Part shown: positions 1-61,228 of the stretch, one piece after another | Layout: the number at the start of each line of letters is the position of its first letter | Position numbering within the stretch: position 1 is the first letter of the stretch | Source: Arcuatula senhousia | Taxonomy: Eukaryota; Mollusca; Bivalvia; Mytilida; Mytilidae | Reading direction: 5' to 3' | Assembly (NCBI GenBank): GCA_963971305.1 | Contig: OZ020306.1 | Span: 55,588,686-55,652,685, forward strand | Length of the DNA stretch: 64,000 bases | Notes under the pieces: generated by a model | Told to the model about the DNA's origin: nothing | What the model saw: the letters and a program-made list of their open reading frames with translations, nothing else | Databases searched by the model: none | Position numbers and translations under genes: made by a program

Positions 1-935
1 ACTATTTTTTGCCTTTAAAGGGCTTTAACACCTATAAAGGGTCATAAGTCAACTTCCACCCCATGGAGACTTTTGTAGAGCTAAATGAGCTGAACATTTT
101 AGCAAGCAACAGCTTTTCTCTATCTGCAATAGTTTTCATTCTATAGGCCAAAAACACTATTTTTCGCCTTTATGGGGCTGTATCCCCTATAAGGGGTCAT
201 CTGACAACTTTAAACCTATGGAGACTTTTGTAGAGCTAAATGAGCTGAACATTTAAGCAAGCAACAGCTTTTCTCTATTTGCAATAGTTTTCATTCTATA
301 GGCCAAAAACATGCAAAAACACTATTTTTCACCTCTAAGGGGCTGTAACCCCTATAAGGAATCATCTGACAACTTTGACCTTATGGAGACTTTAGTAGAG
401 CTAAATGAGCTGAACATTTAAGCAAGCAACAGCTTTTCTCTATTTGCAATAGTTTTCATTCTATAGGCCAAAAACACTATTTTTGGCCTTTCAGGGGCTT
501 TAACCCCTATAAAGGGTCATCTGACAACTTTGACCCTATGGAGACTTTTGTAGAGCTAAATGAGCTGAACATTTAAGCAAGCAACAGCTTTTCTCTATTT
601 GCAATAGTTTTCATTCTATAGGCCAAAAACACTATTTTTGGCCTTTCAGGGGCTTCAACCCCTATTAAGCGTCATCTGACAACTTTGACCCTATGGAGAC
701 TTTTGTAGAGCTAAATGAGCTGAACATTTTAGCAAGCAACAGCTTTTCTCTATCTGCAATAGTTTTCATTCTATAGGCCAAAAACAATATTTTTGGCCTT
801 TAAGGGGCTGTAACCCCTATAAGGGGTCATCTGGCAACTTTGACCCTATGGAGACTTTAGTAGAGCTAAATGAGCTGAACATTTAAGCAAGCAACAGCTT
901 TTCTCTATCTACAATAGTTTTCATTCTATAGGCCA
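1..935. repeat. Tandem array of a ~155-bp module, cut by window start
   Basis: About six copies of a 155-bp unit (one copy is 165 bp), marked by GAGCTGAACATTT recurring near 87, 242, 407, 562, 717 and 872. Each unit also holds a short palindromic CCCCTATAAGGGG-type block and TTTTCATTCTATAGGCC. The same module recurs in inverse orientation at 41905-42540 and again at 61258-62520, inside elements with different ends. No coding potential is visible. Confidence 0.9.
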
Positions 936-1402
936 ATAAAAAGCTTCGCCGAGCGCAGCATGATACGACCGCAACATGTTGAACCCTGTACATTTTAGGC
1001 CCAATATGGATAGTCTATTGCTCTGGACACATGCAGCCCATGGTGGACTGACAAAGGTTTTTGACACATGCTGCTCTGGTGGACTTTCGACCCAGGGGGT
1101 AAAAATATAAATTTTCAATTTCGTATTCTACTCTTGCAAAAAAATTGTCAAAATCGGACAAGAATTAAAAAAAATCAATTTCGGCCCCTTTTGGCCCCTT
1201 ATTATGTAACAGGTGAAAAAGGGGTGGGGTTGCAATAATAATTTCTCAAATTTGGATTCACTACTTGACAAAAATAAACTTGCAAAAAAAAATTTTTAAA
1301 TCGGACCACAAATAAAAAAGTTTTGATTTTGGCCCCATTTGGCCCCTAATTACGTAATAGGGGAAAAAGGGGGGGGGGGTTGCAAAAATTAATTCTTAAT
1401 TG
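936..1402 (-). mobile_element. Family D repeat end inserted in the module array
   Basis: The segment begins with the outer end of family D (AAAAAGCTTCGCCGAGCGC, then a GATACGACCGC block), which matches the far end of the copy at 41474-43060 in inverse orientation. It contains two short degenerate units mentioning 'ggcccctaat-tacgtaatagg'. The 155-bp module resumes at about 1403, so this looks like an insertion into, or a recombination within, that array. The small open frame through it is repeat sequence and not a gene. Confidence 0.7.
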
Positions 1403-1470
1403 TGTAAATGAGCTGAACATTTAAGCAAGCAACAGCTTCTATCTACCTGCTATAATTTTCATTTCATAGG

Positions 1471-3243
1471 CCAACTAGAGGCTCCCAGGAGCCTGAATCG
1501 CTCACCTGATCTCTTATGCTAAAGCCTCTTACCTAGTGTCAACATGGTCTACATGTACTTGGTAAGTAACATTAAAGAGACAAGTTAGGATAGAAAACAC
1601 TTTTAAGCCCAAGAATACAAAGTTACAAAGCTTTCCATTTGAAAAATAAAACCAAAAAACAAACATATTAAGTTAAAATTGATTGAAAACACTTAAAAGG
1701 ATGATCTGACAATTTTGACCCTGAAATCATTTTTGTAGATCTCAATGAGCTGAACAATTTTGCAATGCTAACTATTCCTCTAACTCTTATGGCTTTTAAG
1801 ATAACGTCCAAAAACTGTGAAAATGGTCAATTTTGATGATTAAGGGGAAATAACTCCTGTAAGTAGTCATCCCACAACTTTGACTCAATGGAAAGTTTTG
1901 TAGAGCTTTTGATGCTGAAGAAGGAAGGTTGCTTTGGATTTTCTCTATCTCTTATACTTTTTTTTTCTCTATCTCTTATACTTTTTGAGCTATAAGCTAA
2001 AAACTATGGTCTGACCCCCCTGTTCTATTTTTAGTTACGGTAGCCATGTTGGTTGGTCGACGTTCACAAATTTCACAAACTTGGTAGAGGACATCCTAAA
2101 GATCAAGTGTACAAAGTTTCAAAGCAATCCCACCAGTGGTTTCAGAGAAGAAGATTTTTAAAAATCAGTTAAAATTGATAGTAAATCAGTCAAAGGGGGA
2201 TAACTCTTCAACGGTTGATCTGACAATTTTGACCCTGAATCATTTTTGTAGATCTGAATGAGCTTAACAATTCTGCAATGCTAACTTTTCCTCTAGCTGT
2301 AACAGTTTTCAAGATATTGTCCAAAAACTGCAAAAATGGTCAATTTTGACGATTAAAGGGCAATTACTCCTATAAGGAGTCGTTTCACAATTTTGACTCA
2401 ATAGAGAGATTTGTAGAGCTTTTGATGCTGAACAAGGAAGGTTGCTTCGGATTTTCTCTATCTCTTATACTTTTCCAGTTATAAGCCAAAAACAATGGTC
2501 TGACCCCCCTGTTCTATTTTTAGCAACAGCGGCCATGTTGGTTTGTCAACGTGTATATAATTCACAAACTTGGTAGAGGACATCCTAAAGATGAAGTATA
2601 CCAAGTATCAATGCAATCTCTTCAGTGGTTTCAGAGAAGAAGATTTTTGAAAATCAGTGTAAATTAATGGAAAAAACAGTTAAAGGGGAATAACTCTTAA
2701 AGGGTTGATCTGACAATTTTGACCCTGAAATCATTTTCGTAGATCTCAATGAGCGTAACAATTCTGCAATGCTAACTTTTCCTCTAGCTCTAACTGTTTT
2801 CAAGATATAGTCCAAAAACTGAACAAATGGTCAATTTTGATGATTAAAGGGCAATAACTCCTACAAGGAGTCGTTTCACAACTTCGACTCAATGGAGAGA
2901 TTTGTAGAGCTTTTGATGCTGAACAAGGAAGGTTGCTTCGGATTTTCTTTATCTCTTATACTTTTCGAGTTATAAGCCAAAAACAATGGTCTGACCTCCC
3001 TGTTCTATTTTTAGCAACAGCGGCCATGTTGGTTGGTCGACATGTATATAATTCACAAACTTGGTAGAGGACATCCTAGAGATCAAGTATACCAAGTTTC
3101 AATGCAATCCCTTCAGTGGTTTCTGAGAAGAAGATCTTTGAAGAAAAGTTAACGGACGGACAGACGGACGACGGACGGACGACGGACGACGGACGCTTAA
3201 CGATGACAATAGCTCACATGACCCTTTGGGTCAGGTGAGCTAA
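1471..3243 (+). mobile_element. Family A non-autonomous element, copy A1
   Basis: It starts with the palindrome AGGCTCCCAGGAGCCT followed by GAATCGCTCACCTGA. It ends with a hairpin in which AGCTCACATGACCC pairs with GGGTCAGGTGAGCT. The outer inverted repeat is therefore GCTCACCTGA...TCAGGTGAGC. Inside are three diverged units of about 480 bp ('ctgacaattttgaccctga', 'ggtctgaccccc...ctgttctattttt'), then a GGAC/ACGG microsatellite at 3151-3196. No transposase is seen, so it is non-autonomous. Further copies lie at 19227-20975, 61229-62908 and from 63548. Confidence 0.75.
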
Positions 3244-3811: not shown

Positions 3812-6800
3812 TCAGATTGCCAAAGCATCATTTTGTATTTCATGACTGAGCTGAGTCTGTAGGTCACTGAGTTTTTTCTTGAGCACAGACAAACACGATA
3901 ACATGATGTTTTCTGGTCGCAATGAACCACAGGATTCCACATTGTAGAAAAATTTGTTGGCTTTTCCAAGTGGATTGGGTGGGGCTTGTACTGAAAAATA
4001 AATAGTAATATATATATAACATTTTATTTTGTGTTACACAACATTAAATGCTTTTTCTTTTAAAGCCCCACTCCTCCCATCAAATACATGTATATAGTGT
4101 GTTTTATGCCCCATCTATGAAAGAAGAGGGCATATAGCGTTTGGGTCCATCAAGTGCTGCGAGATGGGGCATTTATATCTTTCCAACATATTCTTGTTTC
4201 TCGTTGGTTCTGTCTCATTTTTAGTCATAAATAGTTAAAAGTCTTTAATTCAATTTGTTAAGATTAACATTTTTTTTTTATACTGATTTTCTAAATACAA
4301 TGTAGTTCGCACCAAATAATGGACAACATTTAGTTTGAATATGGCCACTTTTTAAAATTCTTTCGATTAAATAATGTATATTCTTCAAGATTCTTGCTAT
4401 ATTAAAAATAATTTTTGTATATCGTACAGAGGGTTATTTTGGTGGGGGTAAATTTTTAGCTGTTTTTATGTTATAAGGTAGGTGAAAAAAAAATTTCAGG
4501 TTTTATTTTCGTGGTTTGTGAATGTGTTTGTATATGATTTGTGCTAGATGGATATTTTTGCAGGATTTATTTTTGTGATTTTCGACTGTCAACCGCTTAA
4601 ATAACCCACTATACAGCAACTCACAAGTAAATTTAACAAATGAGGAAAAATTGAACAAGATACAGAAAAAAACCAAAATTGTTAAGGTTTTTAAAAGTCT
4701 AGGATTAAATGGCAGGTCCAAACAAACAAACAAATAAAGTGTTAACAAAAATATTAATGAAAGGTCAAGGTATAATGTAAATAAAAAATTCCAGCATAAA
4801 AAAGGACCTTGGCCTAGATCTAATAAAATTTGTCAAAGTCAAAAATGGCTGGATTTCGTTAAACAGAAAGTAGGTGAAAACAGAACTGAAATTGAATCCC
4901 ACATAATGGGACCCCATTCTGATGCTGCATACCAAATATCAAGTGGCTGTGATAAGTAGTTGCTGAGTAAACTATACAAAAAAATTTTTCACCGCTCGCC
5001 TGCCTGACATAAACCAATTTTTAACCTGGATTTTTTACTCAGTGAAATACGGCCAATAAATGAAATCATACCTTCATCTTCTTCTAGTTCTGTGTATTCA
5101 CTTTTTGGCCTGAAAACAGAATTATAAGATTAAAATAAAGAAGGAATGTGTCCATGGGACATGAATGCCCCCACTTGCCCAAATAGGAAGCAGAAGTGAG
5201 ACAGGTCTGAAAGTTGTTTAGGAAGTAGAGTTTGGCATACTAAACCATCCTAACAAATTTCAAATCATTCTCATGTACAGAAAAGCTCGACAGAAATTCA
5301 TAGGGATGGATGGAAAGACATGAGTAAAACTTAACCCCCTTCCACCGACATGTTGCTGTCGCAGGGGCATAAAAACTTTAACAAAGTAAGAGCTTTGAAT
5401 ATTTCAACAGCAATTTCATTTGTTTTAAATAGACTTCTCCATGTTTTTTTTTTATATAAACTTTCAATGATGTTAGCATTTATTTAAAATAGGGTTTAGA
5501 TAAACTTTTTTCAGTTACTTCATTTCATAAATAAAGCATTTTAGATTACAACTGATATAATAGTCATTCTTATACATTTCATTTTTTACTTGTCTTTATA
5601 TTAAAACAGCTTGACAATCAACTTTAAAGAGTTCATAACAACTCTTCCATTACTTAATCACACAAGTAAAGCTTTTATGCAAACTTAGACTCTGAGTTAA
5701 AAGTTCATAATTTAGGTCATACCATTCCTCTGGTTTAGGGTAGATGGTATGTCTGAGGGCATTATCTGGGTCATATTCAAACGCCACACCACAGGTAGGG
5801 TTCCACTTGGCATGTTCTTTGGCAAAACCTTTCCTGGCAAATGCTCGAACTTTCAATTCTTGTCCTTTTCTCAGCTTGACAATCAATATATCTGTAAACA
5901 ATAAGAAATATTAAAGTATTTAGTAAGATACATATGAAACAGAATTGTAAAACGAGAAAAAATTTAATGTCAGTACATATTTATGGGGTTGGTAAAGGAT
6001 TATTTTTGTGCAATGTTTTTTAACATTTTTTCCCTGTGTTTTTGTGATTTTGATTTTAATTTCTCTTATCTTCCTGTTCACATAATTGTACATACTATGT
6101 TTTGTATGTATTGTAGTCCTGTGTTTCGTGTTGGACAACCCATTTCTTGTGCATGATCATCTTTTTTGCTTCAAAATCTCAGGGGAAAATCAGTTTTTAT
6201 TCTCAAAAACTTTTAAAAAATCAAAAGAATTTATCCCAATTAATTTTGCTGTGTTTCATGATTGGCAATTTTGTAATTTGTGCCTAGTTTTTGTCATTTT
6301 TTAAGCACATGTTTTGTGTTGGGTTTTTCTCTTTACCACACTTATATATTTGTTTTCAAAGTAGAATTGCAGTCTGTGCCAAAAACTTTTTTCAGCTACT
6401 AGCCCGAACATGAAATTCTTATGTTTTGTAATATTTTACTATATGTTCAAACAAAAATTTGCTAATTTTTTCACTTGCCAAATTGAATTTTTACTAGACA
6501 AAGGCTTCAGGCTAGTGGCTAAAGGCGCAGACTTGGATTTACATCAAATTTTCATATGCAAATACATAAATAGTACAAAATCATTAAAAATTTCAATCTG
6601 TGTCCCTGTAGTTTTTAAGTTTTTGAGTTCATAAAAATTGTGGACAGACAAACTAATAGACAAAATTAAACTTGAAGGCTTCCCCATCTGTGATGCAGGT
6701 CTCTAATATCTGAATGAACAAAATACTTATATCAACATATATCATACATGTATATTAAAGTATAAATATAGTCTTTTTTAATATGCATTATAGGACAAAG

Positions 6801-9800
6801 CAAATTACCTATATTGCACCCCCTTTATCGCACCCCTACAAAATATCAATATTTTATTTTATATGATATAATGAACATTACATGGCAAAATCTGCATCAC
6901 ATGCTGTATTAACCCTCAACCTATGTTGGCCCTCGGTATGAGGTGTCTCTGGTAAATACAGCATATGATACAGATTTTGCCATGTATTATTCAGTATGTA
7001 TCCCTGTCGTAAAAACTTATATCTATATACTGGCAATCAATTTCATGCACAAGCAACACTCCTATGTATTGGAACATAATCCAATGGGCATGTATAATAT
7101 AATAAATATAATACTCGATCAATAATCATACAATGTTTCCTAGTGACCTACCATCTGTTTCTTCATATTCACTTGCTTCTTCTTTTCTTCTTGATGTTAC
7201 CTGAAAAATAAATCATAATACAACAAAATCAAATCAATGGAAACTTGAACATTTGCTACATGTATTTACACAATTACATGTTATTCATAAAGATAAGACT
7301 AACCTGAATGAAATACAAGTATAAACTGGGCATCTAATACAAACTTTATACACATTTCATTGATTTTGCCATTAAACTTTCTTTACTATTCTTCCACTTC
7401 TAATTTCTTTTCTTTACTTCTCTTTTCTCTTCTCCCCCACTAACAGAAATGTAGACCATGTCTCAGCTTTTTAACCCAGCCACCAGAACCATCAGTAAAA
7501 CAGTCCCCCGTACTAACCCACCAAGTCTACAAACCTTATGTCGTAACGTCATTCTCCAGGCAGTAACACTCAAGAGATTGAAACAGGTAAACCAGAAACT
7601 ATAGGTCATTTGCCAAATAAAATTCAATCTAATCATACAGTAAGAACAATAATTTTAAAGTAATCTGTAATCTGTTTTCCTTTGAGTATCAAAACATATT
7701 ATTCACATACTAACATCTTGAGTGATGGATTTTGATTTCCCTTTTCAAACATTTTCTGCTTTTTTGACAATTTTAAGTTTTTTCGACTTAAAATTCTTTG
7801 ATTCAAAGAAGAGGTTCAAAGGAATGTTATTTGGTCAATTTTTTCAGACTTTCATAGTGCTTAATCATTTACTAGTGTATATCATTATTTTCAAGAGGTG
7901 CTCTGGTAGAACCCTCAAACCCTCCTTGGCTATGGACATGATAGATAAAAATTTATGTGAATGTATTTTAGGCTGATGAGTTACTTCCCCTCCCCAGGCC
8001 TCTAAGACGTACAGTCAGTGTCCTAAATCTTCAAGATTTTTTCATTGATGCAGAACTAATTGCTGCAGGAAACCATGAAAAACAATCTTATCCAGCCAAA
8101 TGTGTTTTTGATGGGAAACCCTGTGTTCTTAAAGTCAAACCTAAAGGTATATTATTCCATGTGGAAAATGTATGTCTTCACTTGTTGGACTCAGTTCAGA
8201 TTAATATTGATAAACTAGGTCAACCATGTCAGATGCAGAAATGAATTTTACCATATACATGTAACATAAAACTTTCTATAGACATTGTCTTTCAAATTTT
8301 TTTTTAATTATTACATTGGTACCATTTTACATGTTTATACCACCTTAGTACATGTGTACATGGTACATAATCATACCTTTGAGCCTTTTGCATTCTAAGA
8401 ACCATATCACCCCAATTCTATATATTTACATCATCTCTTTTAAAATATTGAAGACTTAAATCTTATGTTGCTGCCCAAACTGCTGGCATACCAGATATAA
8501 AGGGCAGTAAGTAAGAAAGTAAAATTTTACAAGCATTCTGTGTAATACATTTTACACATTTCATACAATTTAGGCTTCTTTTTTTTTCAGGAAGTAACCC
8601 TGATGTGAACAACCCAAGTTATATTGTGTCATTTGAGGATTGTGACACAGTGTGTTGTGTGTATGAAAAGACTGATTCTCTGTTTGATAAAGTACAAGAG
8701 AATAAACAGCAAGGCCGTACCTTTCAAGAATCATTCATATGGAAAACTGTCAAAGGTCTTCTAGAATTCATGTTAAATGGAAAAATTTCGACGTCAACCA
8801 AAATCAACAGTAGCCTTATTCAGTTTTATGGTACGGAAGGCGTTTTATTTATAGAAAAAGAGGACGAATCCATGACTCAAGTTCAAATGAGTCCAGATTC
8901 AGCCATCTATGAAGCCCCAGAAGTACTGAGGCGTGAAGATCCAACAGAACAATCATTTTCATGGACCCTTGGTTGCATAATTTATGAAATGTTGGCCCTG
9001 GAACCAGCATTTTATGATAGAACTGGTACAAATCCGTTCCAGGTTTTCATGGATATGATGCAAGGGAATTTACCTCCCGAACCACCAGATGGCAGTGCAG
9101 GTCTAAAATCAGTCATGTGGAACTGTCTCAAATTAAACCCTACTGAGAGAATATCCCCACAAGAACTACTTGGACATGCAAAATCTCACTAAATTTCATT
9201 AATTTCAGTCTTTTAAAGTTCTACTTAAGTTTATTTCTGTTTTAATTAAATCTTTAATGTACAATCATTTTAAAACCTTTATTTTATATCTACTTGACAT
9301 TTTAACAAAATGATTAAAAGAGCATTTATATATTTGTGTTTTAATGAATATATGAAAGTAATTAAAACATGCTGCAAAACTTAATGAATGGTCAATTATG
9401 GTCCTGTGATGTTATATTGTAAGGAACACATTTAGGTTTACTAGAGGTTTAAAGGTCACTTTAGGATAGCACTGGTGGTCATGTGATATCATACTTACAG
9501 ATTACTGGAGGTTAGGTGAGCACTGGTCACATGTGTGGTCATGTGATATCATACTTACAGGAACACATTTAGGATTACTGGAGGTTAGGTGAGCACTGGT
9601 CACATGTGTGGTCATGTGATATCATACTTACAGGAACACATTTAGGGTTGCTGGAGGTTAGGTGAGCACTGGTCACATGTGTGGCCATGTGATATCATAC
9701 TTACAGGAACACATTTAGGATTGCTGGAGGTAAGGTGAGCACTGGTCACATGTGTGGTCATGTGATATCATACTTACAGGAACACATTTAGGATTGCTGG

Positions 9801-12800
9801 AGGTTAGGTGAGCACTGGTCACATGTGTGGTCATGTGATATCATACTTACAGGAACACATTTAGGATTGCTGGAGGTTAGGTGAGCACTGGTCACATGTG
9901 TGGTCATGTGATATCATACTTACAGGAACACATTTAGGATTGCTGGAGGTTAGGTGAGCACTGGTCACATGTGTGGTCATGTGATATCATACTTACAGGA
10001 ACACATTTAGGATTGCTGGAGGTTAGGTGAGCACTGGTCACATGTGTGGTCATGTGATATCATACTTACAGGAACACATTATGGATTGCTGGAGGTTAGG
10101 TGAGCACTGGTCACATGTGTAGTCATGTGATATCATACTTACAGGAACACATTTTGGATTGCTGGAGGTTAGGTGAGCACTGGTCACATGTGTGGTCATG
10201 TGATATCATACTTACAGGAACACATTTAGGATTGCTGGAGGTAAGGTGAGCACTGGTCACATGTGTGGTCATGTGATATCATACTTACAGGAACACATTA
10301 TGGATTGCTGGAGGTTAGGTGAGCACTGGTCACATGTGTGGTCATGTGATATCATACTTACAGGAACACATTTAGGGTTAATCGAGGTTAGGTGAGCACT
10401 GGTCACATGTGTGGTCATGTGATATCATACTTACAGGAACACATTTTGGATTGCTGGAGATTAGGTGAGCACTGGTAACATGTGTGGTCATGTGATATCA
10501 TACTTACAGGAACACATTTAGGATTGCTGGAGGTTAGGTGAGCACTGGTCACATGTGTGGTCATGTGATATCATACTTACAGGAACACATTATGGATGGC
10601 TGGAGATTAGGTGAGCACTGGTAACATGTGTGGTCATGTGATATCATACTTACAGGAACACATTTAGGATTGCTGGAGGTAAGGTGAGCACTGGTCACAT
10701 GTGTGGTCATGTGATATCATACTAACAGGAACACATTTTGGATTGCTGGAGGTAAGGTGAGCACTGGTCACATGTGTGGTCATGTGATATCATACTTACA
10801 GGTACACATTTAGGATTGCTGGAGGTTAGGTGAGCACTGGTCACATGTGTGGTCATGTGATAGCATACTTACAGGAACACATTTTGGATTGCTGGAGGTA
10901 AGGTGAGTACTGGTCACATGTGTGGTCATGTGATATCATACTTACAGGAACACATTATGGATTGCTGGAGGTAAGGTGAGCACTGGTCACATGTGTGGTC
11001 ATGTGATATCATACTAACAGGAACACATTTTGGATTGCTGGAGGTTAGGTGAGCACTGGTCACATGTGTGGTCATGTGATATCATACTAACAGGAACACA
11101 TTTTGGATTGCTGGAGGTAAGGTGAGCACTGGTCACATGTGTGGTCATGTGATATCATACTTACAGGAACACATTTTGGATTGCTGGAGGTAAGGTGAGT
11201 ACTGGTCACATGTGTGGTCATGTGATATCATACTAACAGGAACACATTTTGGATTGCTGGAGGTTAGGTGAGCACTGGTCACATGTGTGGTCATGTGATA
11301 TCATACTAACAGGAACACATTTTGGATTGCTGGAGGTAAGGTGAGCACTGGTCACATGTGTGGTCATGTGATATCATACTTACAGGAACACATTTTGGAT
11401 TGCTGGAGGTAAGGTGAGCACTGGTCACATGTGTGGTCATGTGATATCATACTTACAGGAACACATTTTGGATTACTGGAGGTAAGGTGAGCACTGGTCA
11501 CATGTGTGGTCATGTGATATCATACTTACAGGAACACATTATGGATGGCTGGAGGTAAGGTGAGCACTGGTCACATGTGTGGTCATGTGATATCATACTT
11601 ACAGGAACACATTTTGAATTACTGGAGGTAAGGTGAGCACTGGTCACATGAGTAGTCATGTGATATCATACTTACAGGAACACATTTTGGATTGCTGGAG
11701 GTCAGGTGAGCACTGGTCACATGTGTAGTTTGGTCGTCATTACATCTGATGTCGAGGGTAAATTCTACAGAACACTCGGGACAAAATTCTTCACATGTAC
11801 AGTCCTAAAACATGAAAAAATATGATGTTTTGTTATGAATTGTTCTTTTAGTCCTGGGCCAATGCAAGACGTTAAGCTGCTACCATTGGTCATGTTGAAG
11901 ACTGCCATGTACACTTATTCCACATCTCATTACTGTCTACATAAGTTTGTAAGTAAATTCAGCTGAACATGAACAAACTATGAACTAGGAATATGGTCAG
12001 ATAGCTCACAAAGGGATGATGCATCTCCTTTCACTTCATATTGAACTCTACATACATGTAAATATTAGGAAAAAGTTATATATCTTTAATATATATCAAG
12101 GCAAGAAATAACCTTATACATATCTCCATATGCTCATTGCTGTCACATCAAGCAGTTCAGAAACAGTTGCTGGACATATAAGAGAGGACGGGTATAAATT
12201 CTTATATACACCAAACTTTTTAAGCAGGGGGGTACATGGTTAAATAACAGACTTTTCTCTTAGATTTTGACTTGTTGTCTGCTTTCATCCTTCTTTTTAC
12301 ATGTTACAGGTATTATCCTTCACCTTCAAACATTTTTTTTTTGTTTTCAGATAAAAAATTGATCATTCTCTCATTAAAATTAATGCATTCTTTAAGCTAT
12401 CTTTGTTTAATTTTCTATGCTCTTTATTATCATAAAGTATTTGACATTTTCAATCTTTTTGGTAGCATGCTTCTGCAACTCTTGATTAAAAGAAACATAG
12501 CATAATTTATTGTCTGGAACTTTTTCTGTATTTTTTATTTGTATAAATGCTTTCATATCAGATGAATTTATTCTATAGCTTTTCTTACTCTTGAAAACTG
12601 CATTCTATCAACGATATCATCACTGGTCAGGGGAATGAGACCAATTCTGTGGGCTAAAAACTCGTCAAATAACACCGTAGAGTTGGCTTGGATCTGTACC
12701 CAATCAATGGCTAAAAATAAAATAACTTGTATGAAACTGATACAAAATGTTCTGAGTATTTTGTCCCTATGTTGAAAACATTGAAAATGACTGTGATTTG

Positions 12801-15525
12801 AAAGTATTTTCGTGATGTGTGATTGGTTCAATTTTAATTTTTTGTGAATTATGATTCAAAGAATTATTTTCCTGTGAACTGTGATAAGGAGGTTTTCAGT
12901 GAATCAGGATTTGTGATTTAGACTTTTCCCCATTTCTAGTAAACTGTGATATCTGAAATTTGTTTAGGTTATGGGTTTTGTCTAATTCATTTATATTAAC
13001 TTTGAGATTCAAATGCATTTTGATGCTTTCTAGTCATATATAAAAAGAAACATTTTTTCGGTGATGAATAATATTTTTTTTATTCAATTGGATCTGTATG
13101 TATTGTATTTTTACTACATTGTTTGATATCACCAACTTTAAAATCTATTTTGAATATTACTGGAAAGTAAAAAAAAAATATTTGTATGCCCAACCTACAA
13201 CATGTACAAAGTAGATGAGCATATAATGTTCAGGTCTGTTTCTCTGTATCTGCCAAATAAGGTTGAATTAAACATTCCAAGTTGCAAGATCAGGCATCAT
13301 ATCTTTTAAATTTATTTTTATTATTTAAATTTGCAATTATTCACCAATCATCCCATAACAAAATGCAAGTAATACCTGAATTTCTTTATAAAGAGGTTAT
13401 ATAGAAAATGTCAATTCAATGAATGTTTATATATATTATTACATCAAAGCTTTGTTTTCCACTTGTTTTTTGCTTAGTTCCCTCATAATATACAGTACAT
13501 GTTTAAAGATGAAAAAGGCAGCACCACAGATTTAAAACAATTTCTTAATTATGTCAAAAGTAAGAACACTGTGTCCCACAATTTCTACCTATCATACTTA
13601 CCCATAGTTGGCACCTCGGCTATACAAACCCTGCGTAATGCATTGGCCACACTGAAATATAAGTCATACAAATATTTATAGTGTTAATAAATATAAATGC
13701 AAAGTCATTAATGCTATAATAAAATTATATTTATTACTGTAAACCAATAAATTTTCGCGACTACAATATTTCACGTTTAAGTGTCACAGGGCTATTTCGT
13801 TCGTGAAAATAAGATGGTTTACAGTATTCAGAGTTTGAACTAAAACTAAAATGGTTAGATCTATAGAAATAATATGACCATCTTTTCAACAAAATTTTAT
13901 CCAGTATGGCATTTCTTTTTATTGTAACCAAATCTCCTTTGTGGCTTTGTCAGTAGATCAAGCTGAAACACTAGTTTTTTATTTAATAGAAAGAAGATCC
14001 AGACCACTTCATTTGTGTGACTGTATTTTAAGATGCAGCTTTAAAAGAACCAAAAGAAAAAGGTGAACTTATCAACAGAGAGATTCGTGATTTGGTTATG
14101 TTTTATACATGTTCATTGATGTATGTGAGCATATAGAAAAGCCTTTATTATACACATTCTGCCAAATGTCACTTAACTCAAATTTGGATGCAGAAAATAA
14201 GAAAACAGTCTGTCATTTACTCTGATTTCTCAGAAGATTTTGAAAAGTCTTTGCATGTACCGTATTAAAAACAACCAGAAATATCAGCACATTGTCCTTT
14301 AAATATTGTGTTCCATCGACCAATCTTGTCTATATTTGATCTTTGGGTTCGATCTACACAAACTTTTAAGGCCATGCTTTTTTTTTTAAAGTAAACTGGT
14401 ATCTGATTTTACATCCCATGTGTGTGAACAAAGAAATTGACAAAGTGATTTGGTTATCTTTTTTAGAGTAAACCAGCTTCTCTATATAAACTTCTGCCTC
14501 TCAGGTTAGTCTTTATTTACCTTCATGTAATTAATACACAAGATAGCAGTTGATTTTATAGCTAGTACAGCTCATAGCAGAGAACTCCACATGGCAAGTT
14601 ACCCAAAAAATTTGCCTAATGCTAATATCAATTTTTTTTTGTGCGGATATGCTTCTCAGAGTTACAGGTGCAGTGTGAACATTGCACTTTAGTAGGATTG
14701 GGCTTGAATCATATGTATTTTATTTTCAATAAAGGGGCCAATTGAAAAACAGGGAGCAGCGACCGCTGGTCACATTGAAGGCAGATGCTGTTTTCCATTG
14801 TGGATATTTTAAATTTACGTTTATAATGTAGATTGTGTATAATGTCGCTAACACTTATTCCACATCTCATTTTCTTCTAATTAATAATATTGCTGCTTAA
14901 AATATATTTTATGTTTTAAAACATAGAAGTTTGAAATATTAGTGGTGAAAATATTTAATAGCAATGCAATTCAATTGTGCTTTTCATTTATTTTTGTACA
15001 AAGCATATCAAAGAAGTAAATCATATTGTTATTAATGTCATTATTCAAAATTTTGAGCGAAACATCACATGCTCATAGGTGCAATTAAAGCATTTTCATA
15101 ATCAACCACAGAATTCACTGCATTGTTTGCTAAAAATAGAATTTGTAGAATTAGAAAGAAGTTTTTATGATTATCAAGATTATAAACACTTCTTCCCATT
15201 TATTTTCCCTATCAAATTAAGTGAAGTGAATAATTATGATGTGCTTGCAGCCAGGCAATGCCTAAATCGGTTTAAAAACTTTCATCATGATTATTTTTCT
15301 GACTTTAAATGATTAACCAATTCAATACACCTAAATCTGTGAGATTTTAAGGGATCTCTTTCATTAATTTTGGGGTTCACTCCTTGGTACAGGGGAAAAC
15401 AAAGACTGAATGGGTTGACAACATATATGCTGTTGTCACCTGAGATCAGTATCTTCCAATGTGAACTTCAAATTTTCATCTGTTAGTTCTGATAAAGTAA
15501 CAACAGGCTGATTAGCATAAGGCAT
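3812..15525 (-). CDS. POLR2C: RNA polymerase II subunit RPB3 (8 exons)
   Basis: RPB3 is the alpha-like subunit that pairs with RPB11 to nucleate assembly of nuclear RNA polymerase II. Exons, in transcript order: 15440-15525, 13602-13651, 12589-12710, 11676-11804, 7152-7200, 5723-5891, 5072-5109, 3812-3990. All have GT-AG borders and compatible phases and give 273 aa, against about 275 in human. The start is MPYANQP, as in animal RPB3. Visible motifs are [14 protein letters not shown], the zinc cysteines C88, C90, C94 and C97 ([10 protein letters not shown]), [13 protein letters not shown], and the C-terminal [13 protein letters not shown]. Intron 4 (7201-11675) contains both an antisense gene and a large array copied from exon 4. 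The start lies 326 bp from the divergent RPRD1 start. Identity is very secure; splice borders were read by eye. Confidence 0.96.
4107..4177. repeat. Short repeat fragment with GCCCCATCT ends
   Basis: A 70-bp stretch opening with TGCCCCATCTATG and closing with GAGATGGGGCAT forms a short terminal inverted repeat. It resembles the termini of the family A-D elements but has almost no interior. It lies in POLR2C intron 7. Confidence 0.45.
5144..5385. repeat. Probable dispersed-repeat fragment in POLR2C intron 6
   Basis: The stretch runs from 'catgaatgcccccacttg' to 'ctgtcgcaggggcat'. The ends are loosely inverted and the interior ('aggtctgaaagttgttta', 'aatttcaaatcattctc') resembles the internal modules of family B run backwards. 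This is weak and a full match was not found in the window. Confidence 0.35.
5892..7151. other. POLR2C intron 5, no recognisable feature
   Basis: AT-rich intronic sequence with short unrelated open frames on both strands. A short self-complementary motif near 6895-6985 (GGCAAAATCTG...CAGATTTTGCC) suggests a small inverted repeat. Nothing else was seen. Confidence 0.6.
7458..9192 (+). CDS. Nested pseudokinase-like protein (3 exons)
   Basis: Exons 7458-7586, 7972-8146 and 8591-9192 join in phase to give 301 aa and lie wholly inside POLR2C intron 4 on the opposite strand. The N-lobe shows a beta-3 lysine in PCVLKVKPK. The C-lobe keeps YEAPEVL (APE motif), [18 protein letters not shown] (alpha-F, as in NEK-like kinases) and [16 protein letters not shown]. 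The catalytic loop reads [15 protein letters not shown] in place of HRD...N, no DFG is present, and the usual D of DxWxLG is missing. It should therefore be catalytically dead and act, if at all, by binding. The N-lobe is short for a full kinase. The ATG is the first in frame, but an upstream non-coding exon is possible because AACAG precedes it. ATTAAA near 9245 may end the transcript. No frame breaks are seen. The family is not named with confidence. Confidence 0.8.
9411..11675 (-). repeat. 73-bp tandem array copied from POLR2C exon 4 plus its donor
   Basis: There are twenty-nine successive periods of exactly 73 bp between 9559 and 11676, preceded by a 60-bp shortened copy (9499) and a diverged copy (from 9411). 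On the minus strand each unit is 51 bp of the exon 4 end, coding [17 protein letters not shown], followed by 22 bp of intron beginning GTAAGTATG. Common variants are CTA/CTT/CTG at one Leu and CCT/CCA at one Pro, both synonymous. Five units have TAA after Pro, and five have GTTAGT instead of GTAAGT. Because 73 is not a multiple of three, read-through cannot keep frame. The array lies between the nested gene's 3' end and the true exon. Confidence 0.97.
11676..11804 (-). other. POLR2C exon 4, source of the 73-bp array
   Basis: This 43-codon, phase 0-0 exon carries the RPB3 zinc motif ([10 protein letters not shown]) and ends in NPKCVP|GTAAGT. Its last 51 bp equal the exonic part of every array unit. 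Similarity to the units stops upstream of ACACATGTG, so the duplicated segment began inside the exon and ran across the donor. Confidence 0.93.
11805..12588. other. POLR2C intron 3, one small dispersed motif
   Basis: The only recognisable item is 'cacttattccacatctcat' near 11911. It recurs near 14850 and 37981, and inverted near 55657, so it marks a dispersed repeat family. Otherwise the intron is plain AT-rich DNA. Confidence 0.5.
12711..13601. other. POLR2C intron 2, no recognisable feature
   Basis: AT-rich sequence with T-runs. No repeat, RNA gene or coding exon was recognised. Confidence 0.55.
13735..13826. mobile_element. 92-bp TIR MITE
   Basis: Ends are TACTGTAAACCA and TGGTTTACAGTA, a clean inverted repeat, with TTTTCGCG and CGTGAAAA just inside. 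No coding capacity. It lies in POLR2C intron 1. Confidence 0.75.
14745..14880. repeat. Dispersed repeat with GACCGCTGGTCAC motif
   Basis: It runs from 'ggagcagcgaccgctggtc' to 'attccacatctcat'. A diverged inverse copy lies at 55655-55740 (GACCAGTGGTCACTGC), and the tail motif recurs elsewhere. It is probably an old non-coding mobile element. Confidence 0.5.
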
Positions 15526-24800: not shown

Positions 24801-27301
24801 CTACCGAACTTGAATGATCAATCTCATAGTCCAGAGAAAATGACAAAAACGAATCAGTCATACCGGAGAATTGGTGGATCGCAATGGTCCTGACTTGGTA
24901 CAGGCATTTCAAACGAAATGGTGGGTTAAACCAGGTTTTATGGCGCCAAACCTCCCTCTTCCATTGCGATCTTAGGATCCGGTAATGACCATAGATCACA
25001 ACATAGTTGTGAGACACAATAGGGATATTGAGGTGATCATCTCAGTACAGCAGACCAGTCAAACACTAATTAAAACAATTAACTATCATATCTTTTAACT
25101 CAATTTTGAACTTTTCTACCAGTGGCAGTGAACATAATTTTTTTCCACTTACCAGGTTCCTAGAATCTGTTCTTATTTAATGCTTAAACTCCAAAAACAA
25201 CAATATCACAATATTTTACACTGTGTTAAAGAACTTTTTAGGATGCATTGGCATACATCAATTTTGGGCAAATCTGTCATAGTTTTGGAAAATGTCTAGA
25301 TTTTGCCAGACAGGACCTTTTTAGGCTGTCAGTTTTCAAGTAAACTCTTAAAAAATAGAAGAATTTAATTGGTTGTCTCTTGCTTCCAGTAAAGACTGTA
25401 TATCTAATTTCTTGATCAATTTCCTTTTTGTAGACAAAGAATCTGGTAGAGTCCTATCTAGACAGGTGGAGGATGCCTGTATATTGTTGTCTGAATATAA
25501 TTTCCGTCTTAATGCTGAGTTAGAGGAGAGAAAAATGGTGGGGAAAATGTTAAAAGATTTCATAGCATGCCAAAAAGAACAGTTGTTGTCTGCAGAAAGC
25601 AAGTTAGAGGTATTTGAAGTTAAAGAACAATTTAATCATATTATATTAAGTTATAGATCTTGGTTAAGGTCCATATCTCAGGTACAACAGTACATGTTGG
25701 GGGGCACTGATATTGCAAGAACAAATAGGATCATAGACACATTTTTGTCTCGCCTGCGACGAATAGTCGCGGAAGGCGAGACATAGGTATTACTTTCCGG
25801 CGACGGCGGCGGCGACGGCGGCGGCGGCGACGGCGGCGGTGTAAACTTTTTTGTAAGACTTTTATGGACGATGAATTGCTTGAAAAGTATAATAGCTAGG
25901 CATCTGATATTTGGTATACAGACAGTTGAGGGTATGGTCTACGCAACTGTCGCCATGCTGTTTGACCCTGACCCCATTTTCACGCTCCAGTGATTCTGTG
26001 AACTTAGGTTTTTTTTCAGGCCATAAACATTTTTGTAAGACTTTTGTGGACGATCAATTGCTTGAAAAGTATAATAGCTAGGCATCTGATATTTGGTATA
26101 CAGACAGTTGAGGGTATGGTCTACGCAACTGTCGCCATGCCGTTTGACCCTGACCCCATTTTCACGCTCCAGTGATTCTGTGAACTTAGGTTTTTTTTCA
26201 GGCCATAAACATTTTTGTAAGACTTTTGTGGACGATCAATTGCTTGAAAAGTATAATAGCTAGGCATCTGATATTTGGTATACAGACAGTTGAGGGTATG
26301 GTCTACGCAACTGTTGCCATGCCATGTGACCCTGACCCCATTTTCACGCTCCAGTGACTCTGTGAACTTAGGTCTTTTTTCAGGCCGTAAACTTTTTTAT
26401 AAGACTTTTGTGGATGATGAATTGCTGGAAAAGTATATTAGCAAGGCATCTGATATTAGGTATACAGACAGTTTAGGTTAAGTTCTACGCAACTGTTACC
26501 ATGTTGCGTGACCCTGACCCCATTTTCACGCTCTAGTGACTCTGTGAACTTAGGTCTTTTTCAGGCCGAAAAACTTTTTTGTAAGACTTTTGTGGACGAT
26601 GAATTGCTGGAAAAGTATAATAGCTAGGCATCTGATATTGGGTAAACAGACAGTTGGGGCTATGGACAACACAACTGTCACCATGCCATGTGACCATGAC
26701 CCCATTTTTACGCTCCAGTGACTGTGAACTTAGGTCTTTTTTTTTTCAGACAGAAAACTTTTTTAATACTTTTGTGGACAATGGTTTGCTTGAATAGTAT
26801 AATAACTAGGCATCTGTTATTAGGTATACAGACACTTTTTGTGTTTATATCAAGAAATGAAAGCTTAGGTAGTTGATTTTAGTGATGGTGCCGGCAGGCG
26901 AGACATACTTTTAGTGGCCACACTTGTTAGTTCTTTGGTTAGAATTATAAAATGAACAAGAAGCTATACCCTTTGTTTTAACCACTGCAATAAGCTTGGG
27001 GTGGAAAGGACAAAAAGAAATTCAGATTTATTTGCTTTTACATTCTCACTTAATATATTTAACAAAAACTTCTTTTTTCTTTTAAGCTGAAATTTTTTTA
27101 TTTTGCATTTACAAATAATGTTAATAAATCTTATTTCAGGAATACAAGCAAAGACTTGATCGTGTAAAGGAAGTCAGAGTAGAGCTGGAATCTCACATAA
27201 AGAATCTGCCAGACTTCGACCTGTTACCTCGCCTCACTGGTGGTCTCGCTCCCCTCCCATCGGCTGGTGATCTCTTCAACATGTCTGACCTCAGAAGATG
27301 A
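15852..27301 (+). CDS. RPRD1: RPRD1 family CTD-interacting protein (9 exons)
   Basis: RPRD1A/B proteins bind the RNA polymerase II C-terminal repeat through a CID domain and dimerise through a C-terminal coiled coil, acting with the CTD phosphatase RPAP2. Exons: 15852-16002, 16459-16588, 18223-18329, 21280-21345, 22234-22317, 23262-23374, 24355-24481, 25434-25609, 27140-27301; phases agree throughout, giving 371 aa. The CID (residues 1-129) shows KKLSELNNTQQSIQTLSLWL, YLANDVIQNSKKKGPEFTRD and RILNIWEERGVY. A charged linker (130-217) is followed by LADLEHSASSDAAVREKIAA and the C-terminal LTGGLAPLPSAGDLF that is diagnostic of RPRD1. It is longer than human RPRD1A (about 312) and RPRD1B (about 326), mainly through the two similar linker exons 4 and 5. 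Confidence 0.95.
16589..18222. other. RPRD1 intron 2, no recognisable feature
   Basis: AT-rich sequence with scattered short frames. No repeat family or RNA gene was recognised. Confidence 0.5.
19003..19044 (+). other. Candidate cassette exon of RPRD1
   Basis: A pyrimidine-rich acceptor (TTTTGTTTATATAG) precedes 42 bp that would read AEPSNHSTTGLENA and end at a GTGATT donor. Entry and exit phases match exons 3 and 4, so inclusion adds 14 residues in frame. Extending it instead reaches a stop at MC*. I see no homologue, so it may be chance. Confidence 0.3.
19227..20975 (-). mobile_element. Family A element, copy A2 (reverse), in RPRD1 intron 3
   Basis: It begins with the hairpin end TAGCTCACCTGACCC, then a CGTCCGTCGTCC microsatellite, and ends with GAGCGATTCAGGCTCC and an AGGCTCCTGGGAGCCT palindrome. 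The interior is three or so degenerate units of about 500 bp built on 'aactcctctgacac', 'aaccaaacttggtat' and 'aggagttattgcccttag'. The middle is interrupted by an unrelated insertion at about 20411-20665. No transposase is present. Confidence 0.8.
20411..20665. mobile_element. ~255-bp CpG-rich insertion inside A2
   Basis: Family A sequence breaks off after 'ggtactgttgtttaa' and resumes at 'attagcattaggtg'. Between them lies DNA with many CG dinucleotides (GCTCGCG, CACGCGCAG, CTTCGCTACGCTCGC), unlike its surroundings. On the minus strand a 71-codon open frame crosses it but resembles nothing I know. It is probably a younger mobile insertion. Confidence 0.5.
21280..22317 (+). other. Tandemly duplicated linker exons 4 and 5 of RPRD1
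   Basis: Exon 4 (21280-21345) reads TDLAAKRKKKLEEYIPTYKK and exon 5 (22234-22317) ADIAAEIKSRRDKKKVEEYV plus PVNKNK. They share D-[LI]-A-A, K-K-[LV]-E-E-Y and P at matching places, have the same phase 1-1 borders, and lie in the CID-coiled coil linker. This indicates exon duplication. Either or both could be skipped without changing frame. Confidence 0.7.
21669..21735 (-). mobile_element. SINE tail fragment
   Basis: The stretch around GGAAACAAGCTTAATGCTT and CCCTCTCCAGCTAGCA matches the 3' portion of the tRNA-derived SINE at 47330-47692. Only the tail is present. Confidence 0.6.
22891..23010. repeat. 120-bp hairpin repeat in RPRD1 intron 5
   Basis: The arms TTGATGATTATAGAATTTCT and GAAATTCCATGATCAA (imperfect inverted repeat with a shared AACATC block) enclose a second palindrome ATTTTAATTG...CATTAAAAT. 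It is probably a MITE remnant. Confidence 0.6.
23657..23828. mobile_element. MITE of the TACTGTGGATTC family
   Basis: The ends TACTGTAGATTC and AAACCACAGTA are inverted, with 'gggtaccaattttcatgg' and 'ttttcgtgggcat' inside. Relatives lie at 27348-27585, 30127-30336 and 56324-56510. Confidence 0.65.
24795..25015. repeat. Dispersed repeat typical of mussel genomes
   Basis: It contains 'ttggtacaggcatttcaaa' followed by GGTGGGTTAAACCAGG and a 'cctccctctt' block. From memory, this phrase (tacaggcatt...gtgggttaaac) is widespread in mytilid genomes. Remembered similarity is the only evidence and no database was consulted. Confidence 0.45.
25747..26904 (+). mobile_element. Family C element, copy C1, in RPRD1 intron 8
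   Basis: Terminal inverted repeats are GTCTCGCCTGC and GCAGGCGAGAC. The first end forms a hairpin with the following GCGGAAGGCGAGAC. A CGGCGG/CGACGG microsatellite follows, then about five and a half tandem units with an exact 182-bp period ('gtaagacttttgtggacga', near 25853, 26035, 26217, 26399, 26581 and 26763). No transposase is present. The copy at 54243-54772 has the same ends and a different interior. Confidence 0.85.
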
Positions 27302-31046: not shown

Positions 31047-31803
31047 TACCCCCACTCGTAAGAGAGGGGGCTATATTGCAATCACCTTGTCCGTCCGTCC
31101 GTCCGTCCGTCTGTCCGTCCGGTCCAATTTCTCTGCTTCTACTGGATGGATTGGTTTCAAATTTGGTACACAGCTTCAGCATGATGAGTTATACTATGCC
31201 TACCCTTTCCAAGTCAGTCCATCATCTACTTCCTGTTTTCCAAGCCAACTTAGACTTTTTTAGGGGAAAAAAAATTGAAATGTGAAATTTTTCGTAACAG
31301 ATTTGTCGGCTTCTACTGGATAGATTGGTTTCAAATTTGGTACACAGCTTCAGCATGATGAGTTATACCGTGTCCCCCTTTCCAGGTCAGTCCATCATCT
31401 ACTTCCTGTTTTTCAAGCCGACTTAGACTTTATAGGGTAAAAAATTTGAAAAGTGAAATTTTTCGTAACAGATTTCATGGCTTCTACTGGATGGATTGGT
31501 TTCAAATTTGGTACACAGCTTCAGCATGATGAGTTATACCGTGCCTCCCCTTTCCAGGTCAGTCCATCATCTAATTCCTGTTTTCTGAGCTGACTTAGAC
31601 TTTTTATGGGTCAAAAATAGACAATTTTTCGTAACAGATTTCTCGGCTTCTAGAGAAGGGATCGATTTCAAATTTGGTATACAGCTTAAAGATGATGAGT
31701 TGTATCGTGCCTCCTTTTTCCAGGTCAGTCCATCATCTAATTTCTGTTTTCTGAATGGCCGAGTGGGGGTATGCTTAGCACGACTTAGTGCAACCCCTTG
31801 TTT
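31047..31803 (+). mobile_element. Family B element, copy B1
   Basis: The inverted ends are TACCCCCACTCG and CGAGTGGGGGTA, followed outside by 'tgcttagcacgacttagtgc'. Just inside the left end is a GTCC microsatellite (31090-31123). The interior has four tandem units of about 170 bp ('tttcaaatttggtacacagc', 'ccatcatctacttcctg'). The open frames across it are products of this repeat. Copy B2 at 60336 is very similar. Confidence 0.85.
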
Positions 31804-39500: not shown

Positions 39501-39957
39501 ATCAAACAAATACGACCTACTGAAGGTTGCGTTCAGGACAAGATCGTTTTACTGCGATAGAAAAGTTACACTTGTGGGTATTTACCTAGATTAAAAAGTC
39601 ATCATATTGTAGATCATAAATTACATAATGCTATATATAGTCTTCATATTTGTAAACTTTATTTCTGAGTAAGCAATTGAAAATAGAAATTTTGTGTAGG
39701 ATTTTCACAATTACATTTTATAAGGAAGATAACATTTATTTATAATAATAGCATATGATCTATAGTTATATTGGATGCAGGAAATGAAGGAATATAAAGC
39801 TACCAGTAGAATTTCAAACAAGTTTTGCAGTGAACATGTTTAAGATTAAATTTCACTGAATCAGATTACGGCATAATGTACATACATTCAAAGGAATTGG
39901 ATTTGAAGTTAAGTTGAATTTTTAACAAACTGGGAATTTATATAAGATATATCAAAA

Positions 39958-42900
39958 ATGGGAGCAGTCAATAGTTGTTGTATTCCAAAAAATCGAGATG
40001 AGGATACCACTACAAATAAGAAAATTAAAGGTCATCGGCGGAACCTCAGCGCTACGTTTAATATGTCAATGTTGGAAGACCAGCCTCAAAGTGCTATAAA
40101 TATCAACTATTGTGGAGAGGAAGAGTTAATCACCCTGCCTGGAATTAATAAAGAAACGGCTCAAAATATTATAGACTATCGCAAACAGATTGGCGGGTTT
40201 AAAAAGATTGAGGATCTAGCCCTTGTGTCTGGAGTAGGGGCATCTAAACTGAACACAATTCGGAATAAAGTTTGTGTTACCGTTAAAAGACTAACAAGTA
40301 ATGCTGATGATAATTCAGTCAAAAGCTCAATAAGCGGCAGTAATAAAGATCTAGAAGTGTTCACAAATGATTCTTTTAAGAGGAAAAATGGCACTTCCAA
40401 ACTAAACGTTAACGCTTCTAATGTTTTCCAGCTGATGAAGATTAATGGAATCGGCCAAGTTCTGGCAGAAAATATAGTGACATATCGTGATAAAAAGGGA
40501 CCATTCAAATCAATTGATGATCTTATCAAAGTCAAGGGTATTGGCAATAGTATACTCAGTGCAATAAGACCACATATTTGTCTTGTGGACTCAGAATTGG
40601 AACATGCCCCGTCAGAAAACGGAGACATAACACATTCAAACTCCAATCACAAACATTCACCATGTACAAGTAAACATTTAACAGAATCCAAGGAAAATAT
40701 CCTAGAACTATTAGAACCCTTCATGAAAACTTCATCACGGCCAAAAGTTACGCCATTTAACTTTAAGCACAAAAATAAAGGAGTAGTTAGAATAGCTAGT
40801 TGGAATGTTGAAAGATTTGATGAAGAAAAAGCCAACAACCCTGGTGTGAAAGAGGTTATATGTATGACCATTCTAGAAAATGGGTAAGATTTGATTTAAG
40901 GCAACTCTGTAATAATTGGGATGTTGGATAGATAGGGGGGTATTCAATTCTTGCTCCATGTCCCTCTTGCCACTTTATACAATGTATATTTTAATCCTTG
41001 TTTCCATTCTGTTTCTAAGTCTCCTAATGTCCTCCACTCTCTGCCTCTAAGCTACATGTATAGCTAAACCCCTATTTACACTTTATTCCACAACCCATTA
41101 TCCCAGCTCCCCTGTCCACATGGTTAGATGAGTAAAAGTGAGATTCTAAAAGAAGATTCTTTTAATTAATTGTTTTGTTTCCAGGAGTGTAAGAATGATA
41201 TATTGCAGATTTCTGGCAAAGGTTTGTGGGGAGAATGGGTCCCCTCCATGTCAGTTTGAGCATTGTTGAGAAAAGGAGGAGGTTCAGTAATAACCAAAAT
41301 TGGCCCAAAATTTCAACTTGGAGTAAACGTCTTAAAGTTACTGGAAAATATGTTTTTGAATCCTGTATAATTTTAAGGAACGCAAAAAACTAGCTATGCT
41401 GTATTCAACAGCTTGGAGAAAACTGGGCTGAACATGCTGAAACTCATGTTATTTTATGAAAAATTTAAATTTTTATACGACCGCAAAAAATTGCGGACGT
41501 ATAATGGTATGATGCTGTCGTCGTTGTCGTTGTCGTCGTCGTCGTCGTTGTCTGTTAACTTTAGTGTATACACGATAACTTTAGTTCTAGTTATCCAAAT
41601 CCAATGAAATTTGACAATGATATTTCTTACCATTAAAGGATGGATGGGATTGATTTTGGGAGTCCCCCCTTTTTTCGTTTAGAAATTAAGGGCCAAAAGG
41701 GGCCAAATTACAACTTTTAGTTTGTTCTTACAATAACTTTTTCAAAAATCTTTTCCTCTGAAACTACTGAACAGAATTCAATGAAACTTGGTGTGATTGA
41801 TCAATAAGGTGTCATGCACTATAGATGTGTTTCAAGTTTTGATTCATCAAAAAACATGGCCGCTGTGGCTAAAAATAGACCAGGGGGGTCAGACTACTGT
41901 TTTTGGCTTGTAATTCAAAAAGTATAAGAGATAGATGAAATCTGATGCCACCCTACTGCTTCAGGATCAAAAGTTCTACAAAAGTCTCCATTTGGTTGAA
42001 GTTGTCAGATGACCCCTTATAGGGGTTACGGCCCCTTAAAGGTGAAAAATAGCATTTTTTCATGTTTTTGCCCTATAGTATGAAAACTATTGCAGATCTA
42101 TAGCAAAAAGCTGTTGCTTGCTTAATTGTTCAGCTCATTTAGCTCTACAAAAGCCTCCATAGGGTCGAAGTTGTCAGATGACCCCTTATAGGGGTTACGG
42201 CCCCTTAAAGGTGAAAAATAGCATTTTTTTCATGTTTTTGCCCTATAGTATGAAAACTATTGCAGATAGCAAAAAGCTGTTGCTTGCTTAATTGTTCAGC
42301 TCATTTAGCTCTACAAAAGCCTCCATAGGGTCGAAGTTGTCAGATGACCCCTTATAGGGGTTACGGCCCCTTAAAGGTGAAAAATAGCATTTTTTTCATG
42401 TTTTTGCCCTATAGTATGAAAACTATTGCAGATAGCAAAAAGCTGTTGCTTGCTTAATTGTTCAGCTCATTTAGCTCTACAAAAGTCTCCATAGGGTCGA
42501 AGGTGTCAGATGACCCCTTATAGGGGTTACGGCCCTTAAAGGGGCCAAAATCGAAACATTTTTATTAGTGGACCGATTTTGAAATTTTTTTTTGCATGTT
42601 TGTTCTTGTCAAATAGCGGATGCAAAATTGAGAATCAATTTTTGCTACCCCCATCTTTTCCCCTTATTATGTAATTAGGGGCCAAAAGGGACCAAAATGG
42701 AAATTTTTTTACTTCCGATTTTGAAAATTTTTTTTGCATGTTTGTTCTTGTCAAATAGTGGATACGTATTTGAGAATTAGTTTTTGCGACCCCCCCTTTT
42801 CCCCTGTTATGAAATTAGGGGCCAAAATCAAAACATATTTATTTGTGGTCTGATTTTGATCTCCTTTGGAAAAAAAAATAATTCCTTTTAAAATGTGAAT

Positions 42901-60335: not shown

Positions 60336-61097
60336 TACCCCCACTCGTAAGAGAGGGGGCTATATTGCAATCACCTTGTCCGTCCGTCCGTCTGTCCGTC
60401 CGTCTGTCCGTCCGGTTCAATTTCTCTGCTTCTACTGGATGGATTGGTTTCAAATTTGGTACACAGCTTCATCATGATGAGTTTTACTATGCCTACCCTT
60501 TCCAGGTCATTCCATCATCAACTTCCTGTTTTCCAAGCCGACTTAGACTTTTTAAGGGAAAAAAAAATTGAAATGTGAAATTTTTCGTAACAGATTTCTC
60601 GGCTTCTACTGGATGGATTGGTTTCAAATTTGGTACACAGCTTCAGCATGATGAGTTATACCGTGCCTCCCCTTTCCAGGTCAGTCCATCATCTACTTCC
60701 TGTTTTTCGCGCCGACTTAGACTTTTTTAAGGGTAAAAAATTTGAAAAGTGAAATTTTTCGTAACAGTTTTCTCGGCTTCTACTGGATGGATTGGTTTCA
60801 AATTTGGTACACAGCTTCAGCATGATAAGTTATACTGTGCCTCCCCTTTCCAGGTCAGTCCATCATCTACTTCCTGTTTTCTGAGCTGACTTAGACTTTT
60901 TATGGGTCAAAAAAGACAATTTTTCGTAACAGATTTCTCAGCTTCTAGAGAAGGGATTGATTTCAAATTTGGTATACAGCTTTAGCATGATGAGTTGTAG
61001 CGTGCCTCCCCTTTCCAGGTCAGTCGGTCATCTACTTCCTGTTTTCTGAATGGCCGAGTGGGGGTATGCTTAGCACGACTTAGTGCAACCCCTTGTT
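60336..61097 (+). mobile_element. Family B element, copy B2
   Basis: Same ends (TACCCCCACTCG, CGAGTGGGGGTA), GTCC microsatellite, four units of about 170 bp and outer tail as B1 at 31047-31803, with only scattered differences. The high similarity implies recent spread or homogenisation. Confidence 0.88.
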
Positions 61098-61228
61098 TAA
61101 TCTACACTGGTCCTAAGAATCTTTGGTCAACACAGTATGCTCACCTAAAAAGTGCAATTCTACAAGATTGCGAACAAGATATAACAAGATATGTTAAGAT
61201 GTGTCAAGGGAAGTGCATCAGAAACAAG

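Follow-up and report, generated by a model that had tools for sequence, protein, structure and literature searches.

A 73-bp repeat of the exon 4–intron 4 boundary within intron 4 of the RPB3 (POLR2C) gene of Arcuatula senhousia

Described boundary repeats and the RPB3 array

Alternative splicing has reportedly been seen at the 31-bp VNTR of the human CBS gene. The units of this repeat, designated c.1444_1467+7(16_21), are described as equal in length and as differing from one another by single bases; its name, read literally, gives 24 exonic and 7 intronic nucleotides in 16–21 copies, and it is carried by control human chromosomes (PMC2630376). A table in PMC1395315 places it at the exon 13–intron 13 boundary and ties it to reduced CBS activity, and the title of Lievers 2001, as given in reference lists, associates it with reduced enzyme activity.

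The array considered here, located in intron 4 of the RPB3 gene of the bivalve Arcuatula senhousia, resembles the CBS VNTR, as the latter is presented in these sources, in that the unit is built of an exon end, a donor, and an intron start and is of constant length. The RPB3 unit has 73 nt (51 + 22) as compared with 31, and there are 29 full extra copies as compared with 16–21. The CBS VNTR belongs to another gene in another genome, and its copy number varies between people, whereas the RPB3 array is represented by one assembly. Another CBS variant, 844ins68, shares with the RPB3 array a duplicated intron–exon junction that produces competing splice sites, and normal CBS mRNA is still made from it according to PMC2630376. 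The ABCA7 intron-18 VNTR is likewise an intronic tandem array, the length of which correlates with lower expression and altered splicing, but in the description given in PMC6660495 it is placed in intron 18 and is not presented as copies of an exon end. A literature search, performed largely at the level of titles and abstract openings, returned no exon-end array besides that of CBS. The RPB3 array thus belongs to a class of repeat that is rare but has been described before; it exceeds the CBS VNTR in unit length and copy number and resides in a core transcription gene.

The host gene and the anatomy of the array

In the window (the whole stretch of 64,000 nucleotides that was analyzed, from contig OZ020306.1), RPB3 is a complete 8-exon gene of the minus strand (3812–15525), coding for 273 amino acids plus the stop. 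The exons were located by tblastn with human RPB3, except for exon 5, which was read directly from the sequence. Joined at the GT-AG borders, they form an open frame of 273 residues that is otherwise intact, with exon 4 spliced to exon 5 in phase (...KCVP/VTSR...). The product matches human-type RPB3 over its full length; among PDB chains the top hit bears the name RNA polymerase II subunit RPB3 (E 2e-145), and two Pfam domains are matched, the Rpb3/RpoA insert and the Rpb3/Rpb11 dimerisation domain. No signs of a pseudogene were found in the reconstruction. RPB3 is an essential single-product gene for a core Pol II subunit and cannot be lost. The features of the gene and of the array are as follows, in the direction of transcription.

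15440–15525, minus strand: RPB3 exon 1, coding part from the ATG (tblastn and exon joining)
13602–13651, minus strand: RPB3 exon 2 (exon joining)
12589–12710, minus strand: RPB3 exon 3 (exon joining)
11676–11804, minus strand: RPB3 exon 4, of 129 nt and in phase 0 on either side, the final 51 nt of which match the exon-like part of the unit (exon joining and unit alignment)
11674–11675, minus strand: GT of the true exon-4 donor, CCT/GTAAGTAT (in-phase splice to exon 5, VTSR...)
9537–11653, minus strand: 29 full 73-bp units, each of 51 exon-like and 22 intron-like nt, with donors from 11602 to 9558 (Tandem Repeats Finder and donor anchoring)
9477–9536, minus strand: truncated unit, its donor at 9498, 60 bp past the donor of the last full unit (donor anchoring)
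9389–9449, minus strand: decayed relic unit, its donor GT lost (at 9421) (donor anchoring and alignment to the consensus)
7152–7200, minus strand: RPB3 exon 5, 49 nt, the acceptor of which closes intron 4 (sequence reading and exon joining)
5723–5891, minus strand: RPB3 exon 6 (exon joining)
5072–5109, minus strand: RPB3 exon 7 (exon joining)
3812–3990, minus strand: RPB3 exon 8, coding part to the stop (exon joining)

Each unit of the array in intron 4 repeats the last 51 nt (17 codons) of exon 4 together with 22 nt of the intron. Tandem Repeats Finder reports a period of 73 at 9500–11726, with 30.5 copies, 96% matches, and 0% indels. Read on the minus strand and anchored on the donors, the array starts from the true donor at 11675 and proceeds by 29 steps of exactly 73 bp, from 11602 to 9558. 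The exon end, the donor, and the intron start are spanned by the unit in all the full copies (29/29), which are arranged head to tail at constant length and differ by single bases; the departures are two copies at the far end, one truncated and one decayed. The initial annotation had described a unit made of the last 17 codons of exon 4, the donor, and 22 bp of intron, kept at exactly 73 bp in 29 consecutive copies. Its composition is confirmed by the alignment and its regularity by the donor-anchored reading and Tandem Repeats Finder, and the gene, strand, and exon named there are correct. No second copy of the unit is present elsewhere within the 64-kb window, where the best stray match has 17 nt, and nothing in the window thus favors the array being part of a dispersed repeat.

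The exon-2 donor of RPB3 (13590–13601, minus strand) carries the 12-mer GTAAGTATGATA, which is common to the exon-4 donor and the array; its presence at both exon donors is due either to chance or to an old copy. Just beyond the array, a gene of the opposite strand is likely nested in intron 4 (7455–9192, plus strand). Its open frames contain a SOCS box (PF07525, 26.4 bits, 7455–7604) and, at 8515–9192, the C-terminal portion of a protein kinase domain (PF00069, 51.1 bits). Visual inspection of the kinase piece revealed neither HRD nor DFG, so it is perhaps a pseudokinase. The plus strand of 9411–11760 contains 44 donor-like sites, for example AAG/GTGAGC and GAG/GTAAGG, and all 44 score above the true exon-4 donor (5.19 to 8.28 vs 3.17). 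Any read-through transcript from the nested gene would face these sites.

Elsewhere in the window, tandem arrays with units of ~142–182 bp (one of 491 bp) are found at 1–3195, 25798–26834, 31089–31751, 41975–42827, 54313–54661, and 60378–62564, several of them adjoining ACGG, GTCC, or CGG microsatellites; this arrangement probably resembles that of bivalve Helitron-type repeats. An open frame of 313 aa at 39946–40887 (plus strand), with MGAVNSCC near its start, presumably represents EEPD1.

Unit variation and exchange with exon 4

The mean identity of units 1–29 is 95.8%, with 18 of the 73 columns variable, and the 30 copies (exon included) represent 21 different sequences. Between the exon copy and the array consensus, 2 of the 73 columns differ, namely column 24, where the coding difference is synonymous, and column 73, which is intronic. 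Neighboring units (lags 1–4) show on average 2.58 differences, in comparison with 3.07 (sd 0.10) after shuffling, and none of 5000 shuffles gave a value as low. Blocks are repeated within the array, units 5–6 being the same as units 8–9, and units 23 to 26 are identical. In the relic, 51 of the 60 aligned bases agree with the consensus, with 4 gaps (score 51, while the best of 500 shuffled tails reaches 31); the presence of such a decayed unit at the far end suggests that the array arose earlier than its present uniformity would imply. The likeness of neighbors, the repeated blocks, and the relic together indicate that the tandem array turns over locally and that its decayed edge is probably the older part.

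In the coding part, the units differ from the exon by 15 distinct changes, 9 of which are synonymous in the RPB3 frame. The synonymous fraction expected at kappa 2 is 0.275, which gives P of 0.008 (between 0.004 and 0.015 when kappa is varied from 1 to 4), but the test was conceived post hoc and treats the changes as independent, and two of the nine synonymous changes share column 24, so the excess is suggestive only. It is confined to the RPB3 frame, with 4/15 and 1/15 synonymous changes in the remaining two frames. The excess hints, at the level of sequence comparison, at exchange between the array and exon 4; if it is real, units would at times have been copied from the exon end, or would have replaced it. 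A change at column 40 creates a stop and is present in 5 of the 29 units. With respect to position, the allele of the exon prevails near the exon at column 39 (Mann-Whitney p 0.0003), while at column 24 the T allele, which is not that of the exon, is also commoner near the exon (p 0.002). Three further columns gave p of 0.60, 0.72, and 0.05, and no gradient in the total distance of units to the exon is visible by eye along the array.

Donor competition and explanations of the array

The donor is GTAAGT in 24 of the 29 full units and in the truncated unit, and GTTAGT in the other five (units 5, 6, 8, 9, and 13), which gives 30 downstream GT donors in all, 25 GTAAGT and 5 GTTAGT. The initial annotation spoke of near-identical competing donors. 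This holds for the 25 and not for the 5 with the weaker GTTAGT, and the competition is fairly stated as something that the sequence would allow. With a log-odds score of 3.17, built on generic donor base frequencies, the exon-4 donor ranks 4th of the 7 RPB3 donors, and ranking by U1 duplex energy gives it the same place. Among 420 other GTs in the RPB3 introns outside the array, 7 score as high. Donor strength does not tell the true donor from its copies; position therefore must, if the true donor is the one chosen. Competition between neighboring donors is described in PMC5585400 as depending on U1 binding and SR proteins.

Among the 18 distinct unit changes, none falls in the GT (chance 0.61), and the 9-nt donor core is hit once (probability of one hit or none by chance, 0.33). 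No sign of selection keeping the donors within the array is thus seen in these 18 events, which offer low power. An RNA hairpin reaching from a donor to the next unit was dropped, since the folds are not clearly better than shuffles: z is -0.50 and -0.42 for two inner units (62 and 60 of 200 shuffles as good), -1.54 for the true donor (14/200), and 0.26 for the last donor (115/200).

When exon 4 is extended in the model to any of the 30 downstream donors, translation stops after residue 147 in every case, because an in-frame TAA lies in unit 1; retention of the whole intron 4 gives a stop after 147 residues again. The initial annotation, which reasoned from the frame shift, was right that later donors end translation, but extensions by multiples of three units are not spared. 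Of 917 array cassette exons that were modeled, none leaves the RPB3 frame open as far as the normal stop, while skipping of exon 4 is predicted to keep the frame, with a 43-codon deletion and 230 residues. As several introns lie downstream, RNAs bearing this stop would be NMD substrates. In-frame stops are present in most introns, so the uniform stop is also what chance would give. Intron gain by tandem duplication would require a usable acceptor and donor in each copy. CCAG after pyrimidines occurs in 29 of the 30 copies (exon included), where T makes up 24–29% as compared with 59–71% at the seven RPB3 acceptors; recursive splicing or microexons, for which most units offer CCAG, 19 nt, and a donor, were rejected given these T-poor sites and the absence of an in-frame cassette among the 917.

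We consider it likely that the array is a minisatellite of the exon–intron boundary that is turning over and is mostly a tolerated passenger in intron 4. A segment running from the final 51 nt of exon 4 through the donor and 22 nt of the intron would have been duplicated in tandem, and the duplicate would then have multiplied and been partly homogenised, presumably by unequal exchange or slippage. The first donor is expected to be preferred in view of the order of transcription and the lengths that exons commonly have: it is transcribed before its copies, and its distance from the exon-4 acceptor is typical of an exon. It would mostly be used, and the array would be spliced out together with intron 4 and tolerated because of this; occasional use of a later donor would give a premature stop and only waste the RNA, at a probably small cost. 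The initial annotation had left a silent passenger and a tuning of RPB3 level side by side, and the passenger is the better supported, in view of donors no more conserved than chance (few events) and the parallel with CBS as described. Tuning is less so. Three points nevertheless weigh against the passenger. Since 25 of the 30 donors are GTAAGT, 24 of them with near-identical 51 nt upstream, real donor competition is plausible from the sequence, and the true donor is only 4th of 7 by either ranking; the synonymous excess (9/15) would be surprising in a passenger without any exchange with the exon; and, by analogy, the CBS array is reported to be tied to reduced enzyme activity (Lievers 2001, title).

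A splicing rheostat, in which some exon-4 ends would be formed at downstream donors, leading to a stop and NMD, so that array length would set or buffer RPB3 output, is unlikely. The donors are repeated and mostly intact, the modeled extensions (30/30 with a stop) and cassettes (0/917 keeping the RPB3 frame) are of the decay type, and a paper title connects the CBS precedent with reduced activity; against this, the stop result is what chance gives, conservation of the donor core is not beyond chance, and 5 of the 29 full units have the weaker GTTAGT. Telescripting occurs in human, mouse, and Drosophila, as described in PMC5499120, and unspliced donors of the array could in the same way bind U1 snRNP and guard the long intron from premature cleavage and polyadenylation downstream. 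Such a U1 platform seems very unlikely here. Poly(A) hexamers cluster immediately beyond the 25 downstream GTAAGT in the direction of transcription, with 5 of them in 9410–9200 vs 1.8 (sd 1.1) in base shuffles, but this stretch of 211 bases was picked after the hexamers were seen, and over 9410–7201 there are 7 hexamers where 6.4 (sd 2.5) are expected.

The array, or its copy number, has just as small a chance of being the work of the assembler. Arrays of near-identical units are hard to assemble, but 21 sequences among 30 copies, ordered blocks, and a decayed end unit are unlike stutter; the true number of copies may nevertheless differ from about 30. The array might also disturb the recognition of exon 4 and so cause its in-frame skipping, by analogy with the ABCA7 intron-18 VNTR, which PMC6660495 links to skipping of exon 19. 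We regard this as slightly more improbable still, as what the array supplies is extra donors, with the acceptor unaltered, and although the frame is preserved with 230 residues, the 43 deleted codons hold a cysteine cluster, making a working product unlikely. The faintest chance is given to RPB3 serving as a read-out of Pol II: fast elongation or plentiful U1 would favor later donors, the RNA would be destroyed and RPB3 output would fall, with the exon end and the array evolving as one exchanging unit and array length setting the gain. The synonymous excess is consistent with the exchange that this supposes.

In general, the locus offers a natural case of splice-site competition, in which 30 similar GT donors come after one true donor and almost all of them share its 51-nt exon context, and RNA reads would reveal how strongly position in the transcript decides donor choice. 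Boundary arrays of the CBS type are not confined to CBS, and the present case hints at possible sequence exchange between such an array and the coding exon from which it derives.
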